This document shows, piece after piece, positions 4,861-36,010 of a stretch of DNA of 36,010 nucleotides. The notes under the pieces were generated by a model, which did not search any database, was not told the DNA's origin, and saw only the letters and a program-made list of their open reading frames with translations. A program made the position numbers and the translations under genes. Origin of the DNA: a virus. Every line of letters starts with the position of its first letter. Position 1 is the first letter of the stretch. The stretch lies in the IMG/VR virus record IMGVR_UViG_3300046028_002832, positions 1 through 36,010 of that record, one strand, 5' to 3'.

Positions 4861-4895
4861 TATGTAGGTTTAGTGTGTTATGTTTGGGTTCATAT

Positions 4896-4926
4896 ACCCC
4901 GCTCCATACGGAGCGGGGTTTTGCTT
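4896..4926 (+). terminator. Rho-independent terminator after the capsid gene
   Basis: CCCCGCTCC (4897-4905) and GGAGCGGGG (4910-4918) pair perfectly around the loop ATAC, with a further A-T pair outside. A T-rich tail, TTTTGCTTTT, follows at 4917-4926. It separates the head operon from the glycosyltransferase cassette. Confidence 0.88.
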
Positions 4927-4940
4927 TTGACATAAAACCC

Positions 4941-4949
4941 GAAATAGAT
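4941..4949 (+). promoter_or_regulatory. GAAATAGAT leader directly before the GT2 start
   Basis: GAAATAGAT abuts ATGAAC at 4950. The same core, GAAATAGAAAA(T/A), abuts the starts at 20309, 31630 and 31976, and ACAT lies 11 nt upstream here (4930). It decides the start of the glycosyltransferase. Its role as a non-Shine-Dalgarno initiation signal is inferred. Confidence 0.55.
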
Positions 4950-6626: not shown

Positions 6627-7242
6627 GAATTACAGAAAAGACGAATTCGGTGTGATTTCTCAGATTGAAATTGCAGAGAAAACGAACTACGACAAAAAAT
6701 ACATTGCCGACAGATACAAAAAATATCCTGAGAAATGCCAGCAAATGGCGCACTTGCGTTTGGGCTTCATCGTTGGGGCGATCGGCCATGTTCCAAGTTC
6801 AATTTTGGATGTTGGCTATGGAAGCGGAGAGTTTTTAGACGCTGCAAAGAACATCATCCCGCATTGCTTCGGAAACGACATCACAGGAATAATGCCGCCA
6901 ACTGGGGTTAAATTTGTTGAAGATATTTTTAGCATCGGCGTGGAAGTTGTAACATTTTTTGACGTGTTAGAGCATTTCGAGAATCCAGCACCAACAATTG
7001 AAAATTTGAATTGCCGATATGTTGTCATTTCTGTTCCACATTGCCATTACCCATCGGACGATTGGTTCAAATCTTGGAAGCACAGGCGAGAAGACGAACA
7101 CCTGCACCACTTCAAGACAGATTCTCTGATAGCAATTATGCGCTCTTGCAATTTCTTGCCAATCATCGACTCGGATATTGAGGATACAATACGAAAAGAC
7201 GGCAACAAGAACATCCTTTCAATGGTGTTTGAGAGAATATGA
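6619..7242 (+). CDS. Class I SAM-dependent methyltransferase
   Basis: A 207-residue enzyme predicted to move a methyl group from S-adenosylmethionine. Motif I is SILDVGYGSGEFLDAA. Motif IV-like FFDVLEHFENP and the later DEHLHHFKTDSLIAIMRSCN fit the Methyltransf_23/UbiE-like superfamily, often found in glycan clusters. It lacks the (D/N)PP(Y/F) motif of DNA amino-methyltransferases, so DNA is a less likely substrate. The ATG at 6619 overlaps the preceding stop by 8 nt, and the gene ends in an ATGA overlap with the GT9-like gene. The three genes form one translationally coupled cassette, and a sugar O-methylation role is inferred from that. Confidence 0.82.
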   Translation: MLENYRKDEFGVISQIEIAEKTNYDKKYIADRYKKYPEKCQQMAHLRLGFIVGAIGHVPSSILDVGYGSGEFLDAAKNIIPHCFGNDITGIMPPTGVKFVEDIFSIGVEVVTFFDVLEHFENPAPTIENLNCRYVVISVPHCHYPSDDWFKSWKHRREDEHLHHFKTDSLIAIMRSCNFLPIIDSDIEDTIRKDGNKNILSMVFERI

Positions 7243-7898
7243 GAATTTTAATAATTTATCACTTGCGACTTGGCGACATTTTGCGATGCCTTCCAATCGC
7301 TGAATACTTTCACAAATTAGGAAACGAGGTTGTATTTGAATGCAACGAGGAATATCACAACCTTTTTGAGACGGTTGATTATTGTGCGCCTTGCCGTCCA
7401 GATTCTGACAGGAATTACTTCGACAGGGTGATTGATCTTCAGATTTGGCCGAATAGGTATAATAATTTCAGAACGAGCGGGAAAAAATGGGCTGATTACA
7501 TTTGGGATTTGATTGAAGAAGGAGAGGAAATACCAAGGGAAATACATTTAAACGCTCCTGCAATTTGCGTTCCTCCAATAATACAGGACTCGGTTCTATG
7601 CTTCCCGCTTGGATACTCGCAAAACATCAGATACGACACATCCAAAATCATTCAACTTGCCCATATAATTGCGAATGGGAATCCTGTGATTTGCGTTGGA
7701 AAGAAAGACCTCGGAATGCGTGAGTTTGATTCAATCGAGACGCTTTGCGCATACATAGCAAAGGCAAGGCAGGTCGTTACCATCAACTCGGCACCAACGG
7801 TCATTTGCTCTGCTCTCCGTTCTTCTTGGTTTCACATTCCAGATTCTGAACAAGATGATTTTTCCCATGCAAATCAAAAGAGACTCGCAGCGATTTGA
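7239..7898 (+). CDS. GT9 (heptosyltransferase)-like glycosyltransferase
   Basis: A 219-residue protein with the start of GT9 enzymes, RILIIYHLRLGDILRCLPIA, where the (R/K)LGD turn binds near the acceptor. It continues with a Rossmann strand (NEVVFECNEEYHNLF). The C-terminal part has DSIETLCAYIAKARQVVTIN and SAPTVICSAL, which align in style with the GT9 motif where a donor-binding GPxHLA loop is usual. Here that loop is SAPTVI, so the canonical GPxH is missing. Usual GT9 proteins are about 320-350 residues, so this is a short form. It overlaps the methyltransferase by ATGA and probably works with it on one glycan. Confidence 0.68.
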   Translation: MRILIIYHLRLGDILRCLPIAEYFHKLGNEVVFECNEEYHNLFETVDYCAPCRPDSDRNYFDRVIDLQIWPNRYNNFRTSGKKWADYIWDLIEEGEEIPREIHLNAPAICVPPIIQDSVLCFPLGYSQNIRYDTSKIIQLAHIIANGNPVICVGKKDLGMREFDSIETLCAYIAKARQVVTINSAPTVICSALRSSWFHIPDSEQDDFSHANQKRLAAI

Positions 7899-8221: not shown

Positions 8222-9684
8222 GCGACAACAATCTTTTTTTCAATTCTGAGGAAATACGCGATCTCCCATTACGGACTGAATTTGTCACTGGTCCGGCTGG
8301 ACCGACAGGAAACCAAGGGGCAGCGGGAGTAGGCGTTACGATTGGCGGGATAACAGGGCAAGTTTTAGCCAAAAAATCAAACGCCAACTATGATACAGAA
8401 TGGATCAATTCGGTTAGCGTTGTAAGCTGGGGAACAATTACAGGCACGCTTTCAAATCAAACCGATTTGCAGGATGTTCTAAATGCGAAGGCACCATCAA
8501 CGGGGATTTCACCATCGGCAATATCAGGCACGGCAGTAATTACTACCGACCCGAGGCTATCAGATTCACGCTCTCCGAACGGATCAGCAACGGGTGATTT
8601 AGGCGGCACATATCCCGCTCCAAGCGTTGCAAAACTCCAAGGGTATTCTGTATCCGCAACGAGTCCATCAATCGGCCAGATTTTGCAATGGGGCGGATCG
8701 TCATGGTTGCCAGCGGCTATCCCGCAGGGAGGTTCTGGTGGCGGTGGGGTAAACTACTTTTTCAACTTTAACGAGGCGGCAGTTGCTCCCATCACGGGAT
8801 TGCCGACAAGTCCGCAATCGGCTGCAAGGCTCTCAAGGTTTGCAACAATAACGCAGTCGGCTATCACATCGGCGCACTTGTCGAAAGTTGCGTATGATTT
8901 AGTCGCTGGATTTGTAAGCGATCCTGCCGATCCAAATGTGACCCAAATTCCTGCTGGATTATGGGACTTCAATATTTGGGCAGACTCAAATGCGAATAGC
9001 TCAGACGAGTGTATCCTTAGATTGTTTGTCTACAAATACAACGGGACAACGACAACTTTATTATCGGAGTCGGATGACATTTATGTTTATGATCCCACGG
9101 TCATAAACCAATACTCAGCATCGGTTGTTTTCCCGTTTACAACAATCCTTGCGACCGACCGGATATACATTGAGCTTAGAGGCAAAGCCACGCAGAATAA
9201 CATTCACATTTCACTTCACTTCGGGAATGTTACGCCATCCCACGCGCACACGACATTTTCATCTGTAGCTGGAACGGGCGTTGTCAAAGTTGTAAATGGT
9301 GTTTTCCAAACACCAGCAAACTTGATTTTTGACGCTGATGTTGACGCAGCGGCAGCGATTGCACAAAGCAAAATTGCAAGCCTTACAAGTGACTTGGCAG
9401 GGAAAGCACCATCGACAGGGATTTCTCCGAGTGCCATTTCTGGAACAGCAGTAATTACTACAGACGCGAGGTTAAGCGATGCCAGATCGCCAACCTCTCA
9501 CGCCTCTTCTCATGCCGTTGGCGGGTCTGATCCCTTAACGCCTTTGGCAATCGCTGCAGTAGGTAGCAACCCAACTGGAATCACAGGAGCAGAAGCAGTA
9601 ACAAATATGGTATCTCTTACACAGACGGAATATAACAATATTCCAACGCCTGATACGAAAACTCTTTACATTATTACAGACTAA
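8218..9684 (+). CDS. Collagen-like tail fibre protein with internal duplication
   Basis: A 488-residue fibrous protein. Near the N-terminus lies a short collagen-like Gly-X-Y run (GPAGPTGNQGAAG), which would trimerise. A 29-residue block, APSTGISPSAISGTAVITTD plus (P/A)RLSD(S/A)RSP, occurs at residues 92-120 and again at 397-425. A Gly-rich hinge (GGSGGGG, about 175) precedes a central domain of about 200 residues that looks like a jelly-roll. DADVDAAAAIAQSKIASLTS and HASSHAVGGSDPLTP are typical of trimeric phage fibres; the HxxxH-GGSDP loop may bind metal. It probably helps bind the host. Neighbouring 9684 likely works with it. Placement before the tail tube genes is unusual. Confidence 0.78.
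   Translation: MSDNNLFFNSEEIRDLPLRTEFVTGPAGPTGNQGAAGVGVTIGGITGQVLAKKSNANYDTEWINSVSVVSWGTITGTLSNQTDLQDVLNAKAPSTGISPSAISGTAVITTDPRLSDSRSPNGSATGDLGGTYPAPSVAKLQGYSVSATSPSIGQILQWGGSSWLPAAIPQGGSGGGGVNYFFNFNEAAVAPITGLPTSPQSAARLSRFATITQSAITSAHLSKVAYDLVAGFVSDPADPNVTQIPAGLWDFNIWADSNANSSDECILRLFVYKYNGTTTTLLSESDDIYVYDPTVINQYSASVVFPFTTILATDRIYIELRGKATQNNIHISLHFGNVTPSHAHTTFSSVAGTGVVKVVNGVFQTPANLIFDADVDAAAAIAQSKIASLTSDLAGKAPSTGISPSAISGTAVITTDARLSDARSPTSHASSHAVGGSDPLTPLAIAAVGSNPTGITGAEAVTNMVSLTQTEYNNIPTPDTKTLYIITD
8491..8577 (+). repeat. Copy 1 of 87-bp coding repeat in the tail fibre
   Basis: It encodes 29 residues beginning APSTGISPSAISGTAVITTD. The second copy, at 9406-9492, differs at two amino acids and at scattered silent sites, so the duplication is old or under protein-level selection. 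Confidence 0.85.
9406..9492 (+). repeat. Copy 2 of 87-bp coding repeat in the tail fibre
   Basis: Matches 8491-8577 at the protein level except Pro to Ala and Ser to Ala, with many synonymous base changes. Both copies follow a similar helix-like lead-in (DLQDVLNAK and LTSDLAGK). Confidence 0.85.
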
Positions 9685-11030
9685 TGCCTACAACTACTGG
9701 GAAAATCTATCTTGGCACTACTCTTGTATCTGGCGTGACACCCGATTCTGGTTGGGTTCGACCAAGCGATTGGATTGCTATGCCAATAATTACTTCTTCA
9801 GAACAGAAAGCTGCCGCGCTTGTTCTTGTTGGAGACAATAACAGCAATTTTTTTGCTTTTCGTTGTTCCAAAGAATATACCGTTGATTGGGGTGACGGTA
9901 TCATTGAAAATATTGCAACTGGAGTTACAGCGCAGCATAATTATGTTTATAGCAGTCTCTCCGCATCAACAGAAATTGGGCCGATTGGTTCTAAAATGCG
10001 ACAGGCAATGATTGTCATAACCCCGCAAGCAGGAGTAGACCTTACATCTATCTCGTTTAATTTTAAGCACTCAGCACTTGGGATCACGTCATATACTACT
10101 CCAATTCTTGAAATTACCTTATCCGCTCCAAATTGCACAACATTGGCAATCGGTGGGACAATAGCAGGAACAAGATTGCTTCAACAATGCACTATTCTTT
10201 CGCATAATGCGACAAATTTAGAAAATTTATTTAATGTTTGCTCTTCGCTTCAAAGTGTTCCGTTATTTAATACCTCTGCGGTAACAAGTATAAATGGTAT
10301 GTTTAGTGGGTGTTCCTCACTTCAAAATGTTCCGTTGCTTAATACTTCGGCTGTAACAAACATGAATTTTATGTTCAATTTTTGCCCCTCACTTCAAAAC
10401 ATTCCGTTGTTTAATACTTCTGCTGTAACAAACATGATTAGCATGTTTACTGGGTGTTCCTCGCTTCAGGGCATTCCTTTATTAAATACTTCGGCGGTAA
10501 CAAACATGACCAGTATGTTTACTGGATGCACATCACTTCAGGGCATTCCATTATTAAATACTTCGGCGGTAACAAACATGTCCAGCATGTTTTCCAATTG
10601 CACATCACTTCAAAGTATGCCTTTATTAAATACTTCGGCGGTAACAAACATGACCAGTATATTTTCTGGATGCACATCACTTCAGAGCATTTCTTTATTT
10701 AATACTTCTTTAGCACAATCAATGGCCGTTATGTTTAACAATTGTAGATCGCTTCAGAGCATTCCAGCACTTGATTGCTCAAGCGCAACAAACATGAGTC
10801 TTTTTGTTTCAAGTGGCAGCTCACTTAAACGGGTTTTAGCAACAGGTATAAAGAGCAGTGTTTCATTTTCAAGTTCCACGCTTGGCGCAACCGAACTAAA
10901 CGAAATTTACACTAACCTTGCCGATTTAACTGCGCTACCAACACAAACCATAACCGTATCAAACAACTACGGAACAGCAACGGACAACCGCGCAATCGCA
11001 ACAGCAAAAAATTGGACCGTTGCAGGATAA
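9684..11030 (+). CDS. BspA-type leucine-rich-repeat protein, probable receptor-binding tail protein
   Basis: A 448-residue protein. The N-terminal half (1-170) includes a PKD-like strand, YTVDWGDGIIENIATG. Residues 188-379 are eight 24-residue units with consensus SLQ.(I/V)PL.NTSAVTNM.SMF..C, the signature of BspA/DUF285 surface LRR proteins that bind host or matrix molecules. The last two units are degenerate, and a capping region follows (LGATELNEIYTNLADLTAL). The start overlaps the fibre stop (TAATG). No signal peptide is seen, which fits a virion protein rather than a secreted one. A role as adhesin or receptor-binding subunit is inferred from LRR chemistry and from adjacency to the fibre. 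Confidence 0.8.
   Translation: MPTTTGKIYLGTTLVSGVTPDSGWVRPSDWIAMPIITSSEQKAAALVLVGDNNSNFFAFRCSKEYTVDWGDGIIENIATGVTAQHNYVYSSLSASTEIGPIGSKMRQAMIVITPQAGVDLTSISFNFKHSALGITSYTTPILEITLSAPNCTTLAIGGTIAGTRLLQQCTILSHNATNLENLFNVCSSLQSVPLFNTSAVTSINGMFSGCSSLQNVPLLNTSAVTNMNFMFNFCPSLQNIPLFNTSAVTNMISMFTGCSSLQGIPLLNTSAVTNMTSMFTGCTSLQGIPLLNTSAVTNMSSMFSNCTSLQSMPLLNTSAVTNMTSIFSGCTSLQSISLFNTSLAQSMAVMFNNCRSLQSIPALDCSSATNMSLFVSSGSSLKRVLATGIKSSVSFSSSTLGATELNEIYTNLADLTALPTQTITVSNNYGTATDNRAIATAKNWTVAG
10245..10820 (+). repeat. Eight tandem 72-bp units encoding BspA-type LRRs
   Basis: Units begin at each TC(G/A)CTTCA codon set. Central units are near-identical in DNA (for example AATACTTCGGCGGTAACAAA recurs), while the first and last have drifted. 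High DNA identity makes copy-number change by slippage or recombination likely, and makes short-read collapse possible. Confidence 0.88.
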
Positions 11031-27521: not shown

Positions 27522-27543
27522 GGGGTAAGCAGACTCTCTTAAA

Positions 27544-27591
27544 ATGGGTATGAACAATGTCAAAATTCTCAGTTATACAAAAAACGCATGA
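27544..27591 (+). CDS. Possible 15-residue leader peptide before ParB
   Basis: ATG at 27544 opens MGMNNVKILSYTKNA and ends with TGA at 27589-27591, overlapping the ParB ATG at 27588 as ATGA. Its only support is this overlap, the same coupling used throughout the genome, and the A-rich leader before it. It may couple translation to ParB or be chance. Confidence 0.3.
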   Translation: MGMNNVKILSYTKNA

Positions 27592-28343
27592 AAATCGAGA
27601 AAATCCTTACTGAAAAGCTGATTCCTTACGCACGGAACGCAAAAAAGCACGACGAGATTCAAATTTCAAAAATTGCTGGATCGATTAGAGAATTTGGTTT
27701 TAACAATCCAGTTTTGATCGACTGCGACAACGGGATCATTGCTGGGCATGGTAGGGTGATGGCCGCGCAGAAGCTTGAACTTGCCGAGGTTCCTTGCATC
27801 AGGCTCGATCACTTAACCGACGTTCAGAGGAAAGCCTACATTCTCGCCGACAACAGACTGGCGGAGATCGGTGGCGGATGGGATGAAGAGATTCTTAGAA
27901 ATGAGTTGAAAGGATTGCTGGGGGAAGGAATCGACATTTCGGGCTTGGGGTGGGATGATGGATGGGAGGATGATTTAGAGTCGAAGGGGGATGCGTATAC
28001 GAGGAAAGTTGAGTCGCCAAAATATGAACCGAAGGGAACTAAACCATCGATCCCTGAATTGTTTGATGATTCAAAAACAAAAAAGATAATTGAAAGCATA
28101 AATCTTTCAAAGCTTTCAAAGGATGAGAAGGATTTTTTGATTACGGCTGCGCAAAGGCATACGGTTTTCAACTTTGAAAACATTGCGGAGTATTACGCAC
28201 ATTCCTCGAAGGAGGTTCAAGAATTGATGGAGGAATCTGTTTTGGTAATTATCGACTTCAAGAAGGCGATCGAGCTTGGGTTTGTTTCTTTGACTGAAAA
28301 AATAAATGAGATGTATAACATAGATAATCCAGATGAAGAATAA
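27588..28343 (+). CDS. ParB/Srx-fold protein with TAGT-associated C-terminal domain
   Basis: A 251-residue protein. Residues 1-105 are a ParB N-terminal domain: LIPYARNAKKHDEIQISKIA, FGFNNPVLIDCDNGIIAGHG then R (GHGR at 53-56) and YILADNRLAEIGGGWD. This module binds nucleotides or DNA and in ParB acts as a CTPase. Residues about 140-251 form a second domain (AAQRHTVFNFENIAEYYAHS, ELMEESVLVIIDFKKAIELG), which I know mostly next to TAGT-type glycosyltransferase genes such as the one following here. ParB proper has an HTH DNA-binding domain, which is missing. It probably serves DNA modification or packaging rather than segregation. The stop overlaps the glycosyltransferase start by 11 nt. Confidence 0.8.
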   Translation: MKIEKILTEKLIPYARNAKKHDEIQISKIAGSIREFGFNNPVLIDCDNGIIAGHGRVMAAQKLELAEVPCIRLDHLTDVQRKAYILADNRLAEIGGGWDEEILRNELKGLLGEGIDISGLGWDDGWEDDLESKGDAYTRKVESPKYEPKGTKPSIPELFDDSKTKKIIESINLSKLSKDEKDFLITAAQRHTVFNFENIAEYYAHSSKEVQELMEESVLVIIDFKKAIELGFVSLTEKINEMYNIDNPDEE

Positions 28344-29187
28344 AGACTTTGTTGCTTTCATTTTAACCCACGGGAGAGCGAGCAAAGTTTATACTTTCAA
28401 TTCGTTAAAGAAGCACGGATATACTGGAAAGGTTATTATTTTAGTTGATAACGAAGACAAAACATTGGAGGAATACAATAAGAAATTTAAGGGCATCGTT
28501 AATGTTTTCAACAAGAAGAAAATATCTGATACATTTGACGAGGGCGATAATTTTGGGGATAGGCGATCAATCGTTTATGCAAGGAATGCTTGTTTTGATG
28601 TAGCAAAAAAACTTGGGATCAAATACTTTATTGAATTGGATGATGATTATACGGATTTTATGTATAAGTTTGACTCTAAAAATAATTATTCTGAAAAGAC
28701 AAACCTTTCAAACCTTGATTCTGTTTTTGATTCGATGATTGATTTTCTTGAAGCTTCCCAAGCATTGTCGGTTGCGATGGCACAAAATGGAGATTTCATA
28801 GGTGGAAAGAATGGAAGCAAAGCGCAAAAGGTTAAACCTTGGCGCAAAGCGATGAACACCTTTGTTTGTTCTACTGAAAGGCCGTTTAAATTCTTTGGCA
28901 GGATCAACGAGGACGTTAATTTATATACGTGCGGAGGAAGAAGGGGCGATTTGTTCCTGACGATCCCAAATGTGGCAATCAGGCAAAAGCAGACGCAAAG
29001 CAACTCAGGAGGGATGACGGAGTTATACATGGAATCAGGAACATACGTAAAGTCGATGTATTCTGTAATGTATTCTCCGTCATGCGTTAAGGTGATGGAT
29101 ATGGGTCCGGTATTCCGGAGGATGCACCATCGGGTTTCTTGGAAGAATGCAGTTCCGTGTATCTTGGATGAATCATTTAAGAAATGA
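28333..29187 (+). CDS. TET-associated-type glycosyltransferase (TAGT family, GREB1-like)
   Basis: A 284-residue GT-A-type protein. DFVAFILTHGRASKVYTFNS, YTGKVIILVDNEDKTLEEY and YFIELDDDYTDFMYKFD match the TAGT family, described by comparative genomics as possible glycosyltransferases for modified bases in phages. The LDDDY acidic motif (102-106) would bind metal and nucleotide sugar. The NEDVNLYTCGGRRGDLFLTI and NSGGMTELYMESGTYVKSMY stretches are further family signatures. No TET/JBP dioxygenase or base hydroxylase is seen, so its acceptor is unknown. It overlaps ParB by 11 nt and TerS by 4 nt, forming a ParB-TAGT-TerS-TerL operon. The coding sequence looks AT-rich. Confidence 0.75.
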   Translation: MKNKDFVAFILTHGRASKVYTFNSLKKHGYTGKVIILVDNEDKTLEEYNKKFKGIVNVFNKKKISDTFDEGDNFGDRRSIVYARNACFDVAKKLGIKYFIELDDDYTDFMYKFDSKNNYSEKTNLSNLDSVFDSMIDFLEASQALSVAMAQNGDFIGGKNGSKAQKVKPWRKAMNTFVCSTERPFKFFGRINEDVNLYTCGGRRGDLFLTIPNVAIRQKQTQSNSGGMTELYMESGTYVKSMYSVMYSPSCVKVMDMGPVFRRMHHRVSWKNAVPCILDESFKK

Positions 29188-29768
29188 AAAAGGAAAGCGA
29201 GAAACCAGTTGATTTAGAGCAGAAGATAAAAGAGGCCGAGTTTAAGAATATCCTGCAAAAATTAAAGAGCGGGAAAACTCTAACCGCCAGAGAGTCGAAG
29301 ATCGCTTCAGAATTTGCATCGGAAAAAAAGACAGGGAAACTTACTCAACAGAAAATCGCAAAGGCATGGGGGATGACGCAACCCAACGTCCACAAGATGG
29401 TCAAGGCAGGAATGCCGATGACTTCGATGGCCGAGGCTGAAGCGTGGCGCAAGAAATTCCTTGAAACCAATGGGAGGGGAAAGGATGCGCCGAAAGGACT
29501 GAACGAGGCGAGGCTACGCAAAACATTGTTGGAATGCGAACGGATTGAATATGCGCTTGCAGTTGATCGGGGTGAATACGTGAAGAACCTGGAGGTGAGA
29601 GAAGCAGGGATTAGATTTGGGGCAATCCTATCGGCAAAGCTTTCCGCGCTTGTAAACGATGCCAGCGGAGCTTTAGCAGGATTGGGGGAAGTGGAATTGA
29701 GGAAGAAGTTGAATGATCGAGTGCAGGGCATTTTGGGAGAAATGCAGGGGGAACTTTTGAAAATATGA
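29184..29768 (+). CDS. Terminase small subunit (Nu1-like)
   Basis: A 194-residue protein that would recognise the packaging site on phage DNA. After a charged N-terminal helix it has a helix-turn-helix (LTQQKIAKAWGMTQPNVHKM), as in lambda gpNu1-type small terminases. It then has a coiled-coil region (NEARLRKTLLECERIEYALA) and a C-terminal helix (ELRKKLNDRVQGILGEMQGE). It directly precedes the large subunit with a 4-nt overlap, the classic arrangement. With a GpA-type large subunit, cos packaging is likely, but I could not identify a cos site. Confidence 0.85.
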   Translation: MKKESEKPVDLEQKIKEAEFKNILQKLKSGKTLTARESKIASEFASEKKTGKLTQQKIAKAWGMTQPNVHKMVKAGMPMTSMAEAEAWRKKFLETNGRGKDAPKGLNEARLRKTLLECERIEYALAVDRGEYVKNLEVREAGIRFGAILSAKLSALVNDASGALAGLGEVELRKKLNDRVQGILGEMQGELLKI

Positions 29769-31498
29769 TCAATCCGTTATTGGAAGGCATAGCGGCCGGC
29801 ATCAAACTGGCGTATTCTGGGACGATTCTTGATTGGGCAAGTGAGAATGTGAATTTTCCTAATTCTGATCGTGCGAGCAGATTTGATCCAAGCGTTGCGC
29901 CTTGGCTGAACGATCCCTTGCTTGCGGCAAGTGATGACGAGACAACGCAAATCTTTCTTCGCGCCCCTACTGGTGGAGGAAAGACGACAATGATGGAAAC
30001 GATTGCGTGTTTTATTGTCGCTCAGAAGTCTGGACCGACATTGTTTGTGGGTCAAACTGACGATATGGTGAAAGATTGGACTGAAAGCCGATTGATTCCT
30101 ATTTTCAACGAGTGCCAGCCTGTCAGGGAACTATTCCCTCAAGACAGGCACGCAATGCGCAAAACTACGATCCTGTTCCCGCACATGGTTCTTTTCGCAG
30201 GAGGGGCGAACATGACAAACCTTCAAGAGAAGTCCATGCGTTACTGCATTGGGGACGAGGTTTGGCGGTGGAAGGGAGGAATGATCAAGGAACTCAAGGC
30301 ACGGCATCACGACAGATGGAATCGGAAGACAATTCTTGTCTCGCAGGGATGGGATGCAGGGCATGAAGCAGACGTCGAATGGGAGAGTGGGACAAGGGAA
30401 GCTTGGGGATGGGAATGTTCCCAATGTGGGAACTGGCAGAGATACTTATTTGAGGCTATAAAATACGTTGCTGACAGGGATGAAAGGAACAATGTTCTAT
30501 GGGACAACGTGCAAGACTCTGTGCGGATGGTTTGCGAGCATTGCAAGCACGAATATCAGGACACGGCAGCAGTCCGTAGGGATTTATCAACGAGATCCAG
30601 CTATCGATCATTAAACCCGCATCCGATTCGTGGTCATAAATCTTACGAGTATCCGGCTTATGCCGTCTGGTGGATTCCTTGGTTTACCATCGTTAAGGAA
30701 TGGATTGAGGCGAACGAGGCAAAGAACAGCGGGAACATTGAACCGCTAAAACAATTCGTGCAGAAACGGAAGGCGCAAACTTGGCAGAATGAAATCACGA
30801 GCGACTTGCCAGAAATATCGGTGGGCGACTTTTCCAAAACAGAATTTTTGGAAGGGCAGAAAATAGATGGGGAGCATCGGAGGTTTCTGTGCGTGGATAA
30901 ACAGCGGGATCACTTTTGGGCAATCGTCCGGGCGTTTAGGGTTGACGGGTCTTCGATGCTTCTGCACGAATCGCGTCCTTTGACTTGGGAAACCATCGAT
31001 GCAATCCAATCGCAGTTCGAAATCCAACCGAGGTGCGTGGTTATTGATGCTGGGTATGATACGCCGCTGGTTTACGAACAATGCGCACGAAGAAATTGGA
31101 CCGCCTCCCACGGATCAGGGCAAGATGGATTTTATCACATGGAGGGGAGCAGAAGGACGCGTCGATTTGTTTCTAAAATTGAAGGGGCGCAAGCCGGATC
31201 GGACGGGCTAAAATGCGCATATTTTTTCTACAGCAACGAAAAGGTGAAGGACAAGTTGGCATCGCTTCGACAGCCTGATGCAACATTGAAATGGGAAGTC
31301 CCGAGGGATGTTTCCGACAATTACCGCAAGCAAATGTTGAGCGAGATGAAAAAGGATATTGTGAACGCAAAGACGAAACAGGTTGAGCAAAGATGGGTGC
31401 GCATTGGTGGAAGGCCAAACCATCTTTGGGACTGCGAATGTATCGCAATCGCATCGGCAATGTTGGCAGGAGTTTTGCCGATAGGCGCGGAGGCGTAG
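29765..31498 (+). CDS. Terminase large subunit (lambda GpA-type)
   Basis: A 577-residue packaging motor and nuclease. Walker A is APTGGGKT (67-74) and the Walker B-like IGDEVWRW has the acidic pair at 164-165. A zinc ribbon (Cys218/221 and Cys257/260, CSQC..CEHC) lies between the ATPase and nuclease domains, as in GpA. The RNase H-like nuclease has Asp378 in LCVDKQRDHFW, Asp428 in CVVIDAGYDT and Asp556 in NHLWDCECIAIA. Length is a little below lambda gpA (641). It overlaps TerS by 4 nt and is followed by an AT-rich accessory block rather than by the head genes, so packaging and head operons are separated by about 5 kb. Confidence 0.92.
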   Translation: MINPLLEGIAAGIKLAYSGTILDWASENVNFPNSDRASRFDPSVAPWLNDPLLAASDDETTQIFLRAPTGGGKTTMMETIACFIVAQKSGPTLFVGQTDDMVKDWTESRLIPIFNECQPVRELFPQDRHAMRKTTILFPHMVLFAGGANMTNLQEKSMRYCIGDEVWRWKGGMIKELKARHHDRWNRKTILVSQGWDAGHEADVEWESGTREAWGWECSQCGNWQRYLFEAIKYVADRDERNNVLWDNVQDSVRMVCEHCKHEYQDTAAVRRDLSTRSSYRSLNPHPIRGHKSYEYPAYAVWWIPWFTIVKEWIEANEAKNSGNIEPLKQFVQKRKAQTWQNEITSDLPEISVGDFSKTEFLEGQKIDGEHRRFLCVDKQRDHFWAIVRAFRVDGSSMLLHESRPLTWETIDAIQSQFEIQPRCVVIDAGYDTPLVYEQCARRNWTASHGSGQDGFYHMEGSRRTRRFVSKIEGAQAGSDGLKCAYFFYSNEKVKDKLASLRQPDATLKWEVPRDVSDNYRKQMLSEMKKDIVNAKTKQVEQRWVRIGGRPNHLWDCECIAIASAMLAGVLPIGAEA

Positions 31499-31544
31499 TG
31501 TTTATCAGGGTTTGCGGGTGGGTAAAAATAAATGAAAAAAACTA

Positions 31545-31629
31545 TTTACAGAAATCAAATTCTGTGAGAGATTAGAAACATCAAAGGGAACGAATCCCAA
31601 TGATAGAAACAAAAATAGAAATAGAAAAA
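31545..31629 (+). promoter_or_regulatory. Structured leader, copy B, heading the accessory block
   Basis: TTTACA (31545-31550), 27 nt, ACATCAAA (31578-31585), hairpin GGGA-ACGAA-TCCC (31586-31598), A-rich spacer and GAAATAGAAAAA (31618-31629), then ATGAA. It repeats copy A (20229-20308) in order and spacing. The hairpin stem bases differ between the copies at paired positions yet still pair, which argues for a conserved RNA structure. It probably drives or tunes the accessory genes. Confidence 0.6.
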
Positions 31630-31920
31630 ATGAACATCACAAAAGCAACCTTCAAAAGCTTCATCAAAAAAAATAAGAACAACCTGCAAGTTTGGGTTAA
31701 ATCTTCATTCGATGGAATGACAGATTGTGTTCAATCAATTGGTGGTTCTTTCAAGCCAGTTGAAGAGTCTGAAAAATGGGTCGAGCATAGCTTGGGAATC
31801 AAGGGAGTTTGGCTCGTTAATGGTGGAGGCGATTACTTCACCAAGTTTGAAGAAAACGGAATGGTTGGAATCGAGTATTACAATTGTTGCGGTCAGGGGA
31901 TTCTTGCAATCCCTGCATGA
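31630..31920 (+). CDS. Conserved phage protein of unknown function
   Basis: A 96-residue protein beginning MNITKATFKSFIKKNKNNLQ, then SFDGMTDCVQSIGG. The TKATFKSFIKKN..NL pattern is, as I recall, frequent in small phage and plasmid proteins near polyvalent or ParB-type genes, but no function is known. It has four cysteines, including NCCG. I chose ATG 31630 because the GAAATAGAAAAA leader abuts it; an in-frame ATG at 31600 lies inside the structured leader. It is first in the AT-rich block. Confidence 0.7.
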   Translation: MNITKATFKSFIKKNKNNLQVWVKSSFDGMTDCVQSIGGSFKPVEESEKWVEHSLGIKGVWLVNGGGDYFTKFEENGMVGIEYYNCCGQGILAIPA

Positions 31921-31925
31921 TTTTT

Positions 31926-31975
31926 GTTCTCCCCAGAACATCAACAAAAAATAAACCTAAACAGAAATAGAAAAT
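31926..31975 (+). promoter_or_regulatory. Hairpin plus GAAATAGAAAAT leader before the second ParB gene
   Basis: GTTCT (31926-31930) and AGAAC (31935-31939) pair around CCCC. ACATCAA follows at 31938-31944 and GAAATAGAAAAT (31964-31975) abuts ATGAAC. The order resembles copies A and B without the TTTACA element. The hairpin lies only 6 nt after the previous stop, so it may also tidy the upstream transcript. Confidence 0.5.
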
Positions 31976-33118
31976 ATGAACGACGAAAAACAAATGGAAT
32001 TATTCGGCAAATCAGAAAATACAATTGATAATTTAATCAATTCAATTTCCGCCCTTCAATTAGCTGAAAAAGTTGATGCGTTGAATCAGATAAGATTTAA
32101 GCTGCATCAAATTTCCCCATTCAAAAATGAACCTGTTGATTTTGTACGATGGGTAAAAAATGACTTGGTTCATTCAAATGACTACAACCCGAATAGCGTT
32201 GCCCCTCCAGAAATGGAATTACTTCGTTTATCAATAGACTCTGATGGCTATACTCAACCAATTGTTTCAATGTCTGATCCTGATGGTAGCTTTGAGGTTA
32301 TTGATGGGTTTCATCGACATCGAGTAGGGAAAGAATGTGAAAGCATACAATCACGAATTTGCGGATACTTGCCACTCGTTCAAATAAGAGAAACGCAAAT
32401 CGATAAGACGAACCGTATGGCATCAACAATCCGTCATAACAGGGCAAGGGGTAAGCACGCTGTAAATGCGATGTCTGATATTGTCATCGAATTGAAAAAA
32501 AGGAATTGGAATGATGAGCGAATCGCAAAAGAACTTGGAATGGATAGCGATGAGGTTTTAAGGCTTTGTCAAATTTCTGGATTACAAGATGTTTTTTCAG
32601 ATCAAAAATTTAGTCAAGCATGGGATTCTGCAATTGTTGATGAAGAGAAATTTAATTTGTTAGATGAATCAGACATTTCAGAAAGTGAGCAAGACAATGA
32701 AAGAATATTCCACGAATGGGAAGATTGGGAATGCTTCCCATCTGGATTCTATTCAGACAAGCCACCGAAGAGTATGACTGCCGAAGAATGTGAGATTTTG
32801 TATAAAGATTTTTTATCTGACATTCCAAGATTTGAATCAGCATTAAAAAAAGTGATTGAGCAATGGAAGAACTCTTGTGAGCATTATTTAACAAATTCAA
32901 AAATGAATCGCATCGCTTGGCTTGGACAAGCTTCGCTTTGCATTGATTCTGGAATACCCTCACGTTTTTGCGGTGGGTATAACCTGCTTTCAAGTGAACA
33001 ACAAAAGGATGCAGATTTAAAGGCATTAGAGTATTTAAATATCTGGCTTTTAAAAAATAATAGAACTCAGCTTAAATGGGAAGAGGCTCAATCAAAAACG
33101 AAAGCAGACATTTATTAA
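31976..33118 (+). CDS. IbrB-like ParB-domain protein with C-terminal extension
   Basis: A 380-residue protein. Residues about 60-200 form a ParB-like domain: a variant entry (YNPNSVAPPEMELLRLSIDS), then GYTQPIVSMSDPDGSFEVID and GFHRHRVG (111-118) where ParB has GxxR, and RHNRARGKH. A short HTH-like stretch, DERIAKELGMDSDEVLRLCQ, follows. Residues about 240-380 carry a domain I associate with the IbrB partner of DUF3440 proteins (EWEDWECFPSGFY, KSMTAEECEILYKDFLSD, NRIAWLGQASLCIDSGIPSR). The following gene, 1 nt away, is exactly that DUF3440 partner. IbrA/IbrB were described in E. coli as regulators; a nucleotide or DNA modification role is inferred. Confidence 0.8.
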   Translation: MNDEKQMELFGKSENTIDNLINSISALQLAEKVDALNQIRFKLHQISPFKNEPVDFVRWVKNDLVHSNDYNPNSVAPPEMELLRLSIDSDGYTQPIVSMSDPDGSFEVIDGFHRHRVGKECESIQSRICGYLPLVQIRETQIDKTNRMASTIRHNRARGKHAVNAMSDIVIELKKRNWNDERIAKELGMDSDEVLRLCQISGLQDVFSDQKFSQAWDSAIVDEEKFNLLDESDISESEQDNERIFHEWEDWECFPSGFYSDKPPKSMTAEECEILYKDFLSDIPRFESALKKVIEQWKNSCEHYLTNSKMNRIAWLGQASLCIDSGIPSRFCGGYNLLSSEQQKDADLKALEYLNIWLLKNNRTQLKWEEAQSKTKADIY

Positions 33119-33119
33119 T

Positions 33120-34334
33120 ATGCAACTTAAAAGACCGATCTCAAAAAACGTATTGACTGCTGCAAAGGAAAGAATTGCATATACATTTGATAATTTTGAA
33201 AAAATACTTCTTTCATTTTCTGGAGGGAAGGATTCTTCTGTAATGTTTCATTTAGTAATGGATGAAGCAATTCAAAGGAACCGGAAAATTGGGATAATGC
33301 TAATTGATTTTGAAGCTCAATATATTGCTACATCAAATCATGCCCGTGAAATGTTTGAATTATACAAAGATCACATTGAATTACATTGGATATGTCTTCC
33401 AATGAAACTAAGAAATGCTGTATCGAATTATCAACCTTCATGGACTTGCTGGGATGATGATCATAAAAATGATTGGGTGAGGCAAATCCCTAAATTTGAT
33501 GGAGTAGTAAGTGATCAAAATTATTATCCATTTTTTGTAAAAAACTTAGAATTTGAAGAATTTATAATTATGTTTGCTGAATGGTATTCCAATGGGAATC
33601 CATTAGCTGTTTTTGTTGGAATACGCGCAGACGAAAGTTTGAACAGATTTAGAACAATTGCTGTTTCCGATAAAGAAACATATAATAATAAAAGATGGAC
33701 TACAAAAATAACAGGGGGTATATATAACGTATATCCAATATATGATTGGAAAACGAAAGATATTTGGATTTATAATAAAAAAGCTGATAAATGTCATAAT
33801 CACATTTATGATTTAATGCATCAAGCTGGAGTTCCTTTATCACAACAAAGGTTGTGTCAACCCTATGGGGATGATCAAAAAAAAGGACTATGGTTATACC
33901 ATATACTTGAACCACAAAGTTGGTTTAAGGTTGTAGCTCGCGTTAATGGGGCAAATAGTGGTTCGTTATATATTAATGAAATTGGTAATATAAATGGAAT
34001 CAATAAAATAACATTGCCTCCCAATCATACATATAAAAGTTTTTGCAATTTGCTATTATCAACATTGCCTGAAATCAGCAAAGATCACTTTATTGAAAGG
34101 TTTAAGGATCATATTAAGGGATGGAGGAAAAGAGGATATAATGGTGAAATACCAGATTACGCACCAAAAGAATTAGAAAACAAGCATTGGGTTCCATCTT
34201 GGAGAAGGCTTTGCAAAGTTCTTTTAAGAAATGATTGGTGGTGCAAAGGACTTGGCATGACTCAACCGAAGTCTGATGCGTATGCAAAATATCTTGAAAT
34301 CAAGAAGAACAAAAATAAATTAACTAAAAAATAA
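33120..34334 (+). CDS. DUF3440 PP-loop (PAPS reductase-like) ATPase, IbrA-like
   Basis: A 404-residue protein of the phosphoadenosine-phosphosulfate-reductase-like superfamily. The PP-loop LSFSGGKDSS (SGGKDS at 34-39) would activate substrates by adenylation. IGIMLIDFEAQYIATSNHAR, HWICLPMKLRNAVSNYQPSW, GIRADESLNRF and KTKDIWIYN are IbrA/DUF3440 features. Related PP-loop enzymes (DndC, TtcA, TilS) modify DNA or tRNA, but DUF3440's own reaction is unknown. Codon and base use is visibly AT-richer than in the head genes, suggesting recent acquisition together with the ParB-type gene just upstream. A strong hairpin (34340-34361) follows. Confidence 0.85.
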   Translation: MQLKRPISKNVLTAAKERIAYTFDNFEKILLSFSGGKDSSVMFHLVMDEAIQRNRKIGIMLIDFEAQYIATSNHAREMFELYKDHIELHWICLPMKLRNAVSNYQPSWTCWDDDHKNDWVRQIPKFDGVVSDQNYYPFFVKNLEFEEFIIMFAEWYSNGNPLAVFVGIRADESLNRFRTIAVSDKETYNNKRWTTKITGGIYNVYPIYDWKTKDIWIYNKKADKCHNHIYDLMHQAGVPLSQQRLCQPYGDDQKKGLWLYHILEPQSWFKVVARVNGANSGSLYINEIGNINGINKITLPPNHTYKSFCNLLLSTLPEISKDHFIERFKDHIKGWRKRGYNGEIPDYAPKELENKHWVPSWRRLCKVLLRNDWWCKGLGMTQPKSDAYAKYLEIKKNKNKLTKK

Positions 34335-34339
34335 TTATT

Positions 34340-34361
34340 GCGGGAGGGTAAACCCTCCCGC
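34340..34361 (+). terminator. Strong 9-bp GC hairpin after the DUF3440 gene
   Basis: GCGGGAGGG (34340-34348) and CCCTCCCGC (34353-34361) pair perfectly around TAAA, 6 nt after the DUF3440 stop. Only ACTCTAAAT follows, so it lacks a T-tract and termination may be partial. The next ATG (34371) is just 10 nt on. Confidence 0.6.
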
Positions 34362-34370
34362 ACTCTAAAT

Positions 34371-34547
34371 ATGAAAAACTATCCTCAATGGTCTTGTTGG
34401 GAATGCGGCATCAAGCACGGCACAAAAAAAGAACGGATCTCAACATGGCACTTCGGCAAGTGCGATGTTTGCAACCAGAACAAAAGCGTAACAGAACCCC
34501 GCGACTTCGGGCACTTCCAAAAGTGGTTCGACAAAAAAACAAAATGA
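34371..34547 (+). CDS. Small zinc-ribbon protein, conserved in phages
   Basis: A 58-residue protein. CWEC and CDVC (about residues 9-12 and 31-34) make a zinc ribbon, followed by VTEPRDFGHFQKWF. The W.C..CG.KHG...CDVC....VTEPRDFG pattern is, as I recall, widespread in small phage proteins of unknown function. I chose ATG 34371, as the upstream part of the frame lies in the hairpin. It overlaps the next gene by 4 nt. Confidence 0.7.
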   Translation: MKNYPQWSCWECGIKHGTKKERISTWHFGKCDVCNQNKSVTEPRDFGHFQKWFDKKTK

Positions 34548-34867
34548 GCGACCAATGCGAATTTGAGTTTCACGAAAAAAGGAAACTGGCAATCAAGTTT
34601 GAACTCTTTCACGCTTCCAATCCTCATGTTTACGCCTCGCTTGTTGCTTTAGCACGGCGATTTAGAGCAAAGAACAGGAGCGCGCAAACGGGAATTAAAA
34701 TGCTGTATGAAGTTTTGCGATGGGAGTATTTCTTGGCGACAGATAGTCAAGACGAATACAAGTTGAGTAATTCCTACACGGCATTTTACGCTCGTTTGAT
34801 AATGCAGAACGAGCCAGACTTGGAAGGGATTTTTAACCTTAAACAATCAGTTGCAGACCATGAATGA
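34544..34867 (+). CDS. Conserved phage/MGE protein of unknown function
   Basis: A 107-residue protein. IKFELFHASNPHVYASLVAL, GIKMLYEVLRWEYFLATDSQ and YKLSNSYTAFYARLIMQNEP match a well-spread family of phage proteins (FH..NPHVY ... RW...D.YK..N.Y...YARL.M...P) whose role is unknown to me. I chose the ATG at 34544, which overlaps the zinc-ribbon stop by 4 nt. The longer reading frame upstream is a shadow. Its own stop overlaps the next ATG region by 8 nt. Confidence 0.7.
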   Translation: MSDQCEFEFHEKRKLAIKFELFHASNPHVYASLVALARRFRAKNRSAQTGIKMLYEVLRWEYFLATDSQDEYKLSNSYTAFYARLIMQNEPDLEGIFNLKQSVADHE

Positions 34868-35123
34868 TTCAAAAAAATTCAGCATCCTTTCCGATCTGGA
34901 TGCTTGTCCACTCCACCGAAAATCACCATTCGGAATAACAAATGTTACGCAAACCCAATTTTCCATTGCGCGGTATTATGGCGGAATCAATTTCAATGGC
35001 AGTATGTATATTTACTATCCCGACACAGATGAATTGATTCGTGAAGATGTTATGAAATGGAAAGCGAAACAATTAAAGGCGAAGAATAAAAAAAATGAAA
35101 ATCTACAGCAAGAATTGATATGA
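34860..35123 (+). CDS. Small protein of unknown function
   Basis: An 87-residue protein. KKFSILSDLDACPLHRKSPF is followed by TQTQFSIARYYGGINFNGSM and the tyrosine-rich IYYPDTDELIRED, then a Lys-rich helical tail (KWKAKQLKAKNKKNENLQQE). The FSIARYYGG..FNG..Y.Y.P..DEL stretch resembles a small phage family without function. The ATG at 34860 overlaps the previous gene by 8 nt, and the end overlaps the next ATG by 4 nt. Confidence 0.65.
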   Translation: MNDSKKFSILSDLDACPLHRKSPFGITNVTQTQFSIARYYGGINFNGSMYIYYPDTDELIREDVMKWKAKQLKAKNKKNENLQQELI

Positions 35124-35527
35124 ACGGCACACCAGAAACAAGCAACGAAAGAACCTTGAAGTTAGCTTTGGAAGTATTTACTGAATTGGCAAAGACTCTC
35201 AAGCAAGAGCGCGACGAGGCGAGGGAGGCGTTATCGGATTGGGAGAATGCGGCACTTCATGTTGAGGCAGACCATCCAGATGAGAAGCATTGCGGATGCG
35301 TCCCTGTGTTGCGGAAGCTGTTGACTGATGCGCGGGAGGCGTTTGTTATTGCAACAGATCAAATGGTTATTGCTCAAGGAAAGTTACGCGAAGCAAATAA
35401 AGAGCGCGACGAGGCGCGGGAGGCATTGATGAAAATCGAGGATTTATTTATTGATGGCACAGACATTTACGCGGACAGAGAAAATATGGGAATTATTGCC
35501 AGAAACGCATTGGAGGGCGCGAAATGA
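35120..35527 (+). CDS. Coiled-coil protein with ERDEAREAL repeats
   Basis: A 135-residue acidic protein, largely coiled coil. ERDEAREAL occurs twice (about residues 30-38 and 94-102), each time flanking a cysteine-bearing or hydrophobic stretch. HADHPDEKHCGC-like HVEADHPDEKHCGC (residues 47-60) has His and Cys and could bind metal. N-terminus GTPETSNERT resembles the SDTPETDAAE start of the following HNH protein, so the two share a module. Function unknown. It overlaps the HNH gene by 4 nt. Confidence 0.65.
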   Translation: MNGTPETSNERTLKLALEVFTELAKTLKQERDEAREALSDWENAALHVEADHPDEKHCGCVPVLRKLLTDAREAFVIATDQMVIAQGKLREANKERDEAREALMKIEDLFIDGTDIYADRENMGIIARNALEGAK

Positions 35528-36010
35528 GTGACACACCAGAAACAGATGCGGCTGAATACTTAATTTCAATTGGCAGAAAAAACGATGAGTGGCTTGTCCA
35601 GTCAGAATTTGCTCGCAAACTGGAGCGCGAGCGCGACGAGGCGCGGAGCGAACTTGTTAAGGTTGAAAATGAACGAGATCATTGGAAAAAAATTGCATCG
35701 GCTTTTGAAGTTTTAATGCCTCCGGTTGGCGGAAAACGCATTCTGAAAATCATTGAACGAGACGGATGGAAATGCGCTTATTGTGGAGTTGAGACTTGTT
35801 TCAATGGCTGGGATGGCCCGATGCCTACGGTCGATCATATCACGCCAAAGGCCAAAGGCGGATTAGATCACATCGCAAATTGCGTTGTGGCTTGCAAAGA
35901 TTGCAACTCAGCAAAGTCCGACCAAGAGGATTGGTCTCCTAATAGCGGAGAACAAAAAGAGAAAAACACATGGGCATGGGAAGATGGAAAATTTCGCAAG
36001 AGAAACTGGT
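35524..36010 (+). CDS. HNH endonuclease with coiled-coil N-terminus (continues at 1-131)
   Basis: Joined across the ends the product is about 162 residues. N-terminal residues 1-60 share SDTPETDAAE and ERDEARSEL with the preceding gene and form a coiled coil. The HNH domain follows: Cys84/Cys87 (CAYC), the catalytic VDHITPKAKGG (Asp104-His105), Asn119 (DHIANCVVACKDCNSAKSD) and Cys124/Cys127. HNH nucleases beside terminase and head genes often assist packaging-site cleavage, but this one lies 4 kb from the large terminase, so packaging, homing or defence roles remain open. In this window the gene has no stop; it ends at 129-131 of the start. Confidence 0.88.
   Translation, partial: MSDTPETDAAEYLISIGRKNDEWLVQSEFARKLERERDEARSELVKVENERDHWKKIASAFEVLMPPVGGKRILKIIERDGWKCAYCGVETCFNGWDGPMPTVDHITPKAKGGLDHIANCVVACKDCNSAKSDQEDWSPNSGEQKEKNTWAWEDGKFRKRNW
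35885..36010 (+). repeat. Right copy of 126-bp direct terminal repeat
   Basis: Identical to 4-129 and inside the HNH coding sequence. The three bases just before it (GCG) differ from the window's first three (AGA). It implies a closed unit of about 35,881 bp. Confidence 0.85.

Follow-up and report, generated by a model that had tools for sequence, protein, structure and literature searches.

What is the function of a gene pair whose members are named in databases as a phosphoadenosine phosphosulfate (PAPS) reductase and a ParB-like partition protein? The question is raised by the IMG/VR virus record IMGVR_UViG_3300046028_002832, the whole 36,010 bases of which were analysed here (the window). 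Two adjacent genes in this record encode an IbrB-like ParB protein with a fused C-terminal extension, termed here the C module, and an IbrA-like PP-loop protein with a DUF3440 domain. The IbrA–IbrB family is already known, annotated and common in phages, plasmids and bacteria, and the window cassette belongs to the class of fused-variant IbrA–IbrB morons. We find that IbrA and IbrB form an obligate pair, that this pair is part of a larger modular system, and that IbrA retains an intact PP-loop without any invariant cysteine. Tentatively, we read the system as a DNA-bound adenylyl-transfer machine that would alter DNA or a DNA-bound target.

The IbrB–IbrA cassette

The ibrB and ibrA open reading frames (ORFs) are complete, lie on the same strand and are separated by 1 nt, confirming the arrangement of an SGGKDS-type PP-loop protein beside a ParB-like protein that a first-pass annotation of this DNA had described. 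Its assignment of the two as IbrA-like and IbrB-like is likewise borne out by library matches to DUF3440, PAPS_reduct and PHROG 2159. The cassette comprises the following parts.

31976–33118, plus strand: IbrB-like protein with fused C module, 380 amino acids (ORF; phrog_2159, E = 4e-65; alignment of 49 fused proteins; AlphaFold2)
32138–32605, plus strand: IbrB residues 55–210, predicted ParB/sulfiredoxin-like domain and helix-turn-helix (HTH) (match to KorB 8qa9_B; DGFHR and TIRHNRARG motifs)
32699–33118, plus strand: C module, IbrB residues 242–380 (a separate gene of about 140 amino acids in other phages)
33120–34334, plus strand: IbrA-like PP-loop protein with DUF3440, 404 amino acids (ORF, Pfam, AlphaFold2)
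33219–33236, plus strand: PP-loop SGGKDS, IbrA residues 34–39 (S34, G36, K37, D38 and S39 do not vary in alignments of 28 and of 83 sequences)
33828–34181, plus strand: DUF3440 Pfam match, IbrA residues 237–354 (E = 7.5e-32)

IbrA and IbrB form an obligate pair

Searches with IbrA yielded 226 loci, consisting of the window, 135 viral, 10 annotated phage and 80 genome loci, with the window's own copy (L001) dropped; the locus surveys used the best 80 of 229 and of 415 matches for IbrA, of 599 for IbrB and of 516 for the C module. IbrB lies within 2.5 kb of IbrA and on the same strand in 225 of the 226 loci, and in the sole locus without it (L039) IbrA is cut at the locus end. Because two surveys overlap on some contigs, a nonredundant set of 177 loci at 90% IbrA identity was used, and IbrB is present in all 177. 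The reverse test, anchored on IbrB, found IbrA in 66/66 newly fetched loci of the 80 returned; this test and its counterpart for the C module cover only the newly fetched loci (66 and 74, respectively, of 80 each), many of them from contigs already sampled.

Among 50,697 phage records, 216 match IbrA (E 1e-5) and 221 match the ParB part of IbrB (E 1e-3). Compared by organism rather than by intersecting the record lists, the IbrA and ParB tallies agree for Flavobacterium (90/90), Mycobacterium (55/55) and Streptococcus (21/21). Pairwise distances of IbrA and IbrB are also correlated (r = 0.763 over 175 loci, against a maximum of 0.123 in 500 permutations). Beyond phages, an IbrA-like gene occurs in 601 of 72,556 plasmid records, and DNA similar to a coliphage IbrAB pair is found in 1,913 of 5,426 complete Escherichia coli genomes. 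The co-occurrence of ParB and DUF3440 that the first-pass annotation had put forward for checking extends across phages, plasmids and chromosomes.

IbrA has an intact ATP loop and no invariant cysteine

In Pfam, IbrA matches PF01507 (PAPS_reduct; E = 2e-14, 54.4 bits) followed by PF11922 (DUF3440; 111 bits), both above the curated cut-offs, and its closest PHROG is named 'phosphoadenosine phosphosulfate reductase' (phrog_2302, 8.6e-84). An alignment of 83 IbrA sequences contains 36 invariant positions, with D63, E65, R169, E172, S173, R176, P206, Y208, D209 and W210 invariant alongside the PP-loop residues listed above. No cysteine is invariant in these 83 sequences, and none reaches 98% conservation in 175 IbrA sequences, the best being C246 (92%) and C375 (86%). 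PAPS reductase (CysH) carries its catalytic cysteine in a C-terminal ECGxH motif, and no ECG motif is present in the window IbrA.

The IbrA profile finds its best matches among solved structures in CysD (1zun, 4e-7), CysH (6vpu, 6.1e-7) and flavin adenine dinucleotide (FAD) synthase (8rom, 1.3e-6). Two aligned CysH sequences read SSSFGIQAAV where IbrA, CysD and FAD synthase have GKDS or GKDC; because the loop of CysH is degenerate and the ATP loop of IbrA is intact, 'PAPS reductase' is the wrong label. The AlphaFold2 model of IbrA (mean predicted local distance difference test (pLDDT) 90.2, predicted template modelling score (pTM) 0.87) fits FAD synthase, adenosine phosphosulfate (APS)/PAPS reductases and CysD alike, with Z of 14–16. 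Equivalog models score far below their cut-offs for PAPS reductase (TIGR02057, 33.7 against 254.2 bits), DndC (TIGR03183, 20.9 against 290.4) and CysD (TIGR02039, 24 against 396.6), and PADLOC returns only weak PP-loop matches (DndC, 5.6e-7; BrxP, 1.4e-6). The analogy with DndC and sulfur chemistry that had been drawn from the sequence is weakened by these scores and by the lack of an invariant cysteine.

On this sequence and model evidence, the best reading of IbrA is an ATP-pyrophosphatase of the CysD/FAD-synthase/PAPS-reductase group that would use AMP for transfer or activation and is probably neither a reductase nor a cysteine-based sulfurtransferase. CysD and the flavin mononucleotide (FMN) adenylyltransferase domain of FAD synthase share the PP-loop fold and intact ATP loop with IbrA (Z 15.2 and 15.9, respectively), and neither enzyme needs a catalytic cysteine; IbrA differs from both in adding DUF3440 and an obligate ParB partner. 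Since the equivalog score falls below its cut-off and the recurrent partner is ParB rather than CysN, IbrA may be said to work like CysD, not to be one.

IbrB resembles KorB and carries a movable C module

IbrB residues 24–241 match PHROG 2159, 'ParB-like partition protein', whereas the Pfam ParB_N match stays below the curated cut-off (E = 0.00099, 19.5 against 26.3 bits). In the AlphaFold2 model (mean pLDDT 81.4, pTM 0.45, with a poorly modelled linker at about residues 206–236), residues 55–210 superpose on KorB 8qa9_B with Z 13.5 and a root-mean-square deviation of 2.1 over 144 residues, and the HTH part matches 1r71_B with Z 10.6. Other fold matches include ParB and Noc (Z about 10–11), sulfiredoxin 6ky4 (10.2) and the serine kinases SerK and SbnI (about 9), and among viral proteins the closest is Gaia 'L-ectoine synthase', in which a cupin is joined to ParB. 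IbrB thus models as a KorB-like ParB/Srx fold with an HTH, a predicted DNA binder.

The motifs YNPN, DGFHR and TIRHNRARG are conserved at 90% or more across the 177 nonredundant loci. In ParB partition CTPases, GERRxRA forms the nucleotide box. Because DGFHR stands at the GERR position of aligned ParB (profile E 0.0013), a canonical ParB CTPase is not supported, and that IbrB binds a nucleotide is a guess from the model. No match to ParA was found among the window proteins scanned (10 with Pfam and 30 with PHROGs, which is part of the full set).

The C module, of about 140 residues, is encoded as a separate gene in many relatives. Of the 226 loci, 80 have the module fused to IbrB, 54 encode it separately and 92 gave no match to it; it is concentrated in viral loci (126/135, compared with 4/10 annotated phage and 3/80 genome loci). 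Loci anchored on the C module (74 newly fetched of 80 returned) contain IbrA in 74/74 and IbrB in 71/74, and in the three without IbrB the module lies at the locus edge. A tblastn search with the window C module matched only 3 of the 50,697 phage records, so the module seems restricted to a clade. On its own it reaches the cut-off of no Pfam family (Intimin_C comes closest, E 0.04) and matches neither a PHROG at E 0.01 nor a sequence in the PDB; it was modelled as part of IbrB, and the fold search covered the module in that context rather than alone. In one locus (L058:10939–11208), the C-terminal tail of IbrA seems, as judged by eye, to recur as an 89-residue ORF downstream of a separate C module, which suggests that the IbrA tail can move as a unit too.

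The cassette is a moron without a fixed site

The cassette is AT-rich, with a GC content of 0.318 in IbrA and 0.363 in IbrB compared with 0.494 in the gene for the large terminase subunit (TerL) and 0.449 in the window, and GC at third codon positions is 0.225 and 0.294 in IbrA and IbrB, respectively. The best 80 of 181 TerL relatives, 83–100% identical, were examined over stretches of up to 7 kb on each side, shorter at contig ends. One of them (L227) duplicates the window, being identical over 27536–36010 with the pair after TerL, and was set aside from the counts; IbrA is absent from all 79 others within the stretch examined. Many TerL relatives have the order TerL, one small gene, portal. 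In the two nearest (L228 and L229; TerL 97% and 93%), homology flanks the pair, with short matches at 31923–31967 and 31920–31976 and a resumption at 34369 and 34340, respectively, and different small genes occupy the place of the pair. In two further loci (L004 and L005; TerL 74%), a close cassette (IbrA 85% and 84%) sits before TerL instead. Judging by the 79 relatives lacking IbrA, the flanking homology and the placement in L004 and L005, the cassette was acquired and has no single fixed site; it is a moron, and its acquired, AT-rich character had been recognized correctly from the sequence.

The first-pass annotation placed the pair between terminase and head genes. It does follow the TerL gene (29765–31498), but small genes come next, and the portal gene (661–2646) lies at the opposite end of the record. 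The pair lies within a few genes of terminase in the window, L004, L005, Phlyer, LiSara, PJN03 and FCV-1. As a general rule this link was rejected: a GpA terminase appears in 2 of 148 flanking proteins (25 of 67 families listed), and other loci lie among recombination and replication genes.

Two further features border the pair.

31600–31920, plus strand: 106-amino-acid ORF 5′ of the pair (no family match)
34339–34362, no strand assigned: 10-bp hairpin 3′ of IbrA (folding z −5.93)

The 106-residue ORF, which the first-pass annotation also took in by starting at 31545, has no family in library scans, and among 61 sequences its matches are confined to the window, L001 (the window's own copy) and the duplicate record L002. 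The structured leaders claimed for the two genes are not supported: the upstream stretches do not stand out in folding from shuffled sequences (31499–31599, z −1.23; 31915–31990, z −0.68), promoter-like sites fall below the shuffle mean (8 against 11.0), and an Rfam scan gave no family at the gathering score. Of the three stretches folded, only the 3′ hairpin stands out. Its T-rich tail would suit a minus-strand terminator, and since homology to the cassette-free relatives resumes at 34340 (L229) or 34369 (L228), it may belong to the phage backbone.

Accessory partners recur in some lineages

Several further genes recur at set places beside the pair in the 177 nonredundant loci. A GNAT-like protein lies directly beside IbrA in 19; an SNF2-like helicase is present in 15, usually upstream at a distance of one or two genes; a 130-residue protein (PHROG 26647, of unknown function) is found in 7, always directly upstream; and an ectoine-synthase-like cupin in 4, always directly downstream. 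Profile searches that accept any position within these loci raise the counts to 27 for the GNAT-like protein, 10 for the 130-residue protein and 5 for the cupin. Three of the SNF2-like helicases were scanned, and all match Pfam SNF2 (1.1e-16, 4.1e-9 and 3.5e-16). In mycobacteriophage Nebkiss, the cupin is fused to IbrB (E 3.1e-38, residues 1–130). With A, B and C denoting IbrA, IbrB and the C module, typical gene orders are BC-A (53 loci), A-B (40), B-C-A (22), A-GNAT-B (12) and C-A-B (10), with 130-residue protein-A-B (7), helicase-A-B (6) and helicase-GNAT-A-B (3) rarer.

Beyond these recurrent parts, the flanking genes are mixed. Among the families listed for the 148 flanking proteins scanned (of 152), the commonest are LysR (6), NinG (4), DUF6291 (4) and PDDEXK_1 (4). 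Genes near chromosomal pairs in enterobacteria (for example, L110) resemble methionine-salvage genes, which may be simple synteny.

Relation to known systems

The pair has the same families, a DUF3440 PP-loop protein and a ParB protein in adjacent genes, as IbrA–IbrB of E. coli and YbdN–YbdM of strain K-12. IbrA of phage PhiR5_2 is 42.2% identical to the window IbrA, but there ibrA precedes ibrB and no C module is present, whereas the window has a B–C fusion before A. In Listeria, a table in PMC5736727 gives lmo1309 as IbrB, lmo1310 as IbrA and the next gene by number, lmo1311, as an SNF2-family protein, which is an independent sighting of the helicase link. A table in PMC7020466 places the Listeria genes in the core set, and a helicase goes with them; the window, in contrast, has no helicase beside the pair and carries the C module.

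KorB of RK2, ParB and Noc share an N-domain and HTH fold with IbrB, with KorB the closest. Compared with ParB, IbrB has DGFHR in place of GERR and a PP-loop enzyme as its partner, and ParA is missing from the window proteins scanned. The Dnd (DndB–DndC) and Dpd (DpdA–DpdB) systems likewise join a ParB-superfamily protein to a DNA-modifying enzyme, according to PMC10853773 and PMC12839542. They differ from the cassette in that IbrA is without invariant cysteines for a cluster or relay, and no homologue of DndD, DndE or Tgt occurs among the window proteins scanned.

A possible mechanism and its rivals

We infer DNA loading, adenylyl transfer, an acceptor, a role for the C module and a phage benefit in the adenylyl-transfer reading that we tentatively prefer. 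IbrB would bind DNA, probably with a nucleotide, and place IbrA there, and the C module would act as an extra subunit that probably holds IbrA or the target. With ATP, IbrA would adenylylate an acceptor group, most likely one belonging to the DNA or to a DNA-bound protein, and this modification would alter the reading or cutting of that DNA to the benefit of the carrier element. The DNA or nucleotide function suggested earlier from the sequence is accordingly plausible through the KorB-like ParB and HTH model and the minority of SNF2-like neighbours, but not through the DndC analogy. A bolder version, which we consider improbable, is a new kind of DNA modification: a cysteine-free PP-loop enzyme with KorB-like clamp loading and, in some lineages, an SNF2 motor would adenylate the backbone or a base and a non-sulfur group would be attached. 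Lineage-specific tailoring or docking would then fall to the C module, the cupin and the GNAT-like and 130-residue proteins, in a system carried as morons in phages, plasmids and about one-third of complete E. coli genomes.

Several observations weigh against adenylyl transfer on DNA. The fold similarity of IbrA spans only residues ~6–264 and barely covers the DUF3440 part. The window has neither an SNF2 nor a GNAT partner, as is true of most of the 177 loci, and where these partners do occur they are mainly in genome loci (12/15 and 17/19, respectively). The acetyl-CoA loop R/Q-x-x-G-x-G/A occurs in 0/19 GNAT-like neighbours under a strict pattern and 3/19 under a relaxed one; because the loop is mostly lacking, an active acetyltransferase is doubtful, and acetyl-CoA chemistry was rejected for this neighbour. 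A second ParB was found near the pair in all five isolates read, two of which also have a methyltransferase, yet a modification island built on these genes was also rejected, given a second ParB in 3/107 viral or phage loci compared with 19/79 IbrA-free TerL relatives (locus lengths differ). In 7 genome loci the pair has a LysR-type cluster as its neighbour, directly upstream in 6, and in the two enterobacterial regions read it is near surface-protein genes (TonB-receptor genes in one, fimbrial and EAL genes in the other), contexts that fit regulation better; fusions of cupin and HTH domains are also typical of regulators.

These last points favour the closest rival, a transcription co-activator in which KorB-like IbrB would sit on promoters and IbrA would make or sense a small adenylylated ligand as a switch that turns on phage or host genes. 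We regard this as a serious possibility, although somewhat doubtful. Reportedly, in work by Sandt in 2002, IbrA and IbrB activate prophage eib genes in E. coli ECOR-9, the only phenotype we have met for the family. The best fold match of IbrB, KorB, is a transcriptional repressor, LysR domains recur in the flanking proteins as counted above, the cupin-ParB fusion suits a regulator, and PMC9068703 reports that CitR represses ybdNM. On the other side, the invariant PP-loop and other invariant motif residues of IbrA count against a co-activator, and the SNF2-like partners are left unexplained by it. The pair is also carried by phage FCL-2, described in PMC4541368 as without a clear integrase or repressor and with two upstream ORFs common to a host genome; its carriage there and these host-shared ORFs argue against a purely prophage role, and, together with the varied sites of the moron, make a fixed phage promoter target unlikely.

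A conflict module (toxin–antitoxin, abortive infection or inter-phage exclusion), with IbrA as effector and IbrB as regulator, seems unlikely to us. In its favour, PMC7020466 tabulates lmo1310 (DUF3440, a toxin by guilt by association) with lmo1309 (ParB, the antitoxin) as a pair, the carriage by phages, plasmids and chromosomes would suit such a module, and the SNF2 and GNAT partners are reminiscent of defence loci. Against it, no nuclease or classical toxin holds a fixed place beside the pair among neighbour clusters of at least 4 loci, the NinG-like cluster, present in 12 loci, is scattered in position, and PADLOC-DB offers weak PP-loop matches only. The weakest explanation, close to refuted and in our estimate very improbable, is an enzyme of sulfur metabolism or modification, either a PAPS reductase or a DndC-like phosphorothioation protein. 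The PHROG name and PADLOC matches of IbrA speak for it; its intact ATP loop, unlike that of CysH, and its lack of an invariant cysteine speak against it, and no cysteine desulfurase, DndD or DndE is present among the window proteins scanned. What places it last is that the PAPS reductase, CysD and DndC models score far below cut-off and that DndC requires a cluster cysteine, C280 (PMC11662687).

Other features of the window

Directly before the terminase genes, a TET-associated glycosyltransferase gene (28333–29187; PF20691, 6.3e-36) adjoins a gene for a ParB of PHROG 620 (27588–28343); the scanned window proteins gave no match to a TET/JBP dioxygenase. Positions 4875–7898, which follow the gene for the major head protein, encode a two-domain glycosyltransferase, a methyltransferase and a 219-residue protein without a PHROG match. 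A 448-residue protein with repeats of the type LFNTSAVTSMxxMFxGCSSLQ (9684–11030) lies beside a tail-protein match, and an HNH endonuclease ORF (35524–36009; phrog_16726, 9.7e-16) runs off the end of the record.

Implications for the IbrA–IbrB family

In the literature searched, as far as its texts were available, neither a reaction nor biochemistry of DUF3440 was found, in keeping with the first-pass annotation, although subscription or preprint work may hold one. Within the same bounds, no description was found of the C module fusion or of the partners taken together as one system, the nameless C module not having been searched by name. A very common gene pair carries a misleading name, PAPS reductase, with no reaction given for it in that literature. 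Cysteine-free adenylyl transfer beside a DNA-bound ParB would be a testable replacement label, and together with the modularity of the system it would open this old annotation to direct tests in laboratory strains.

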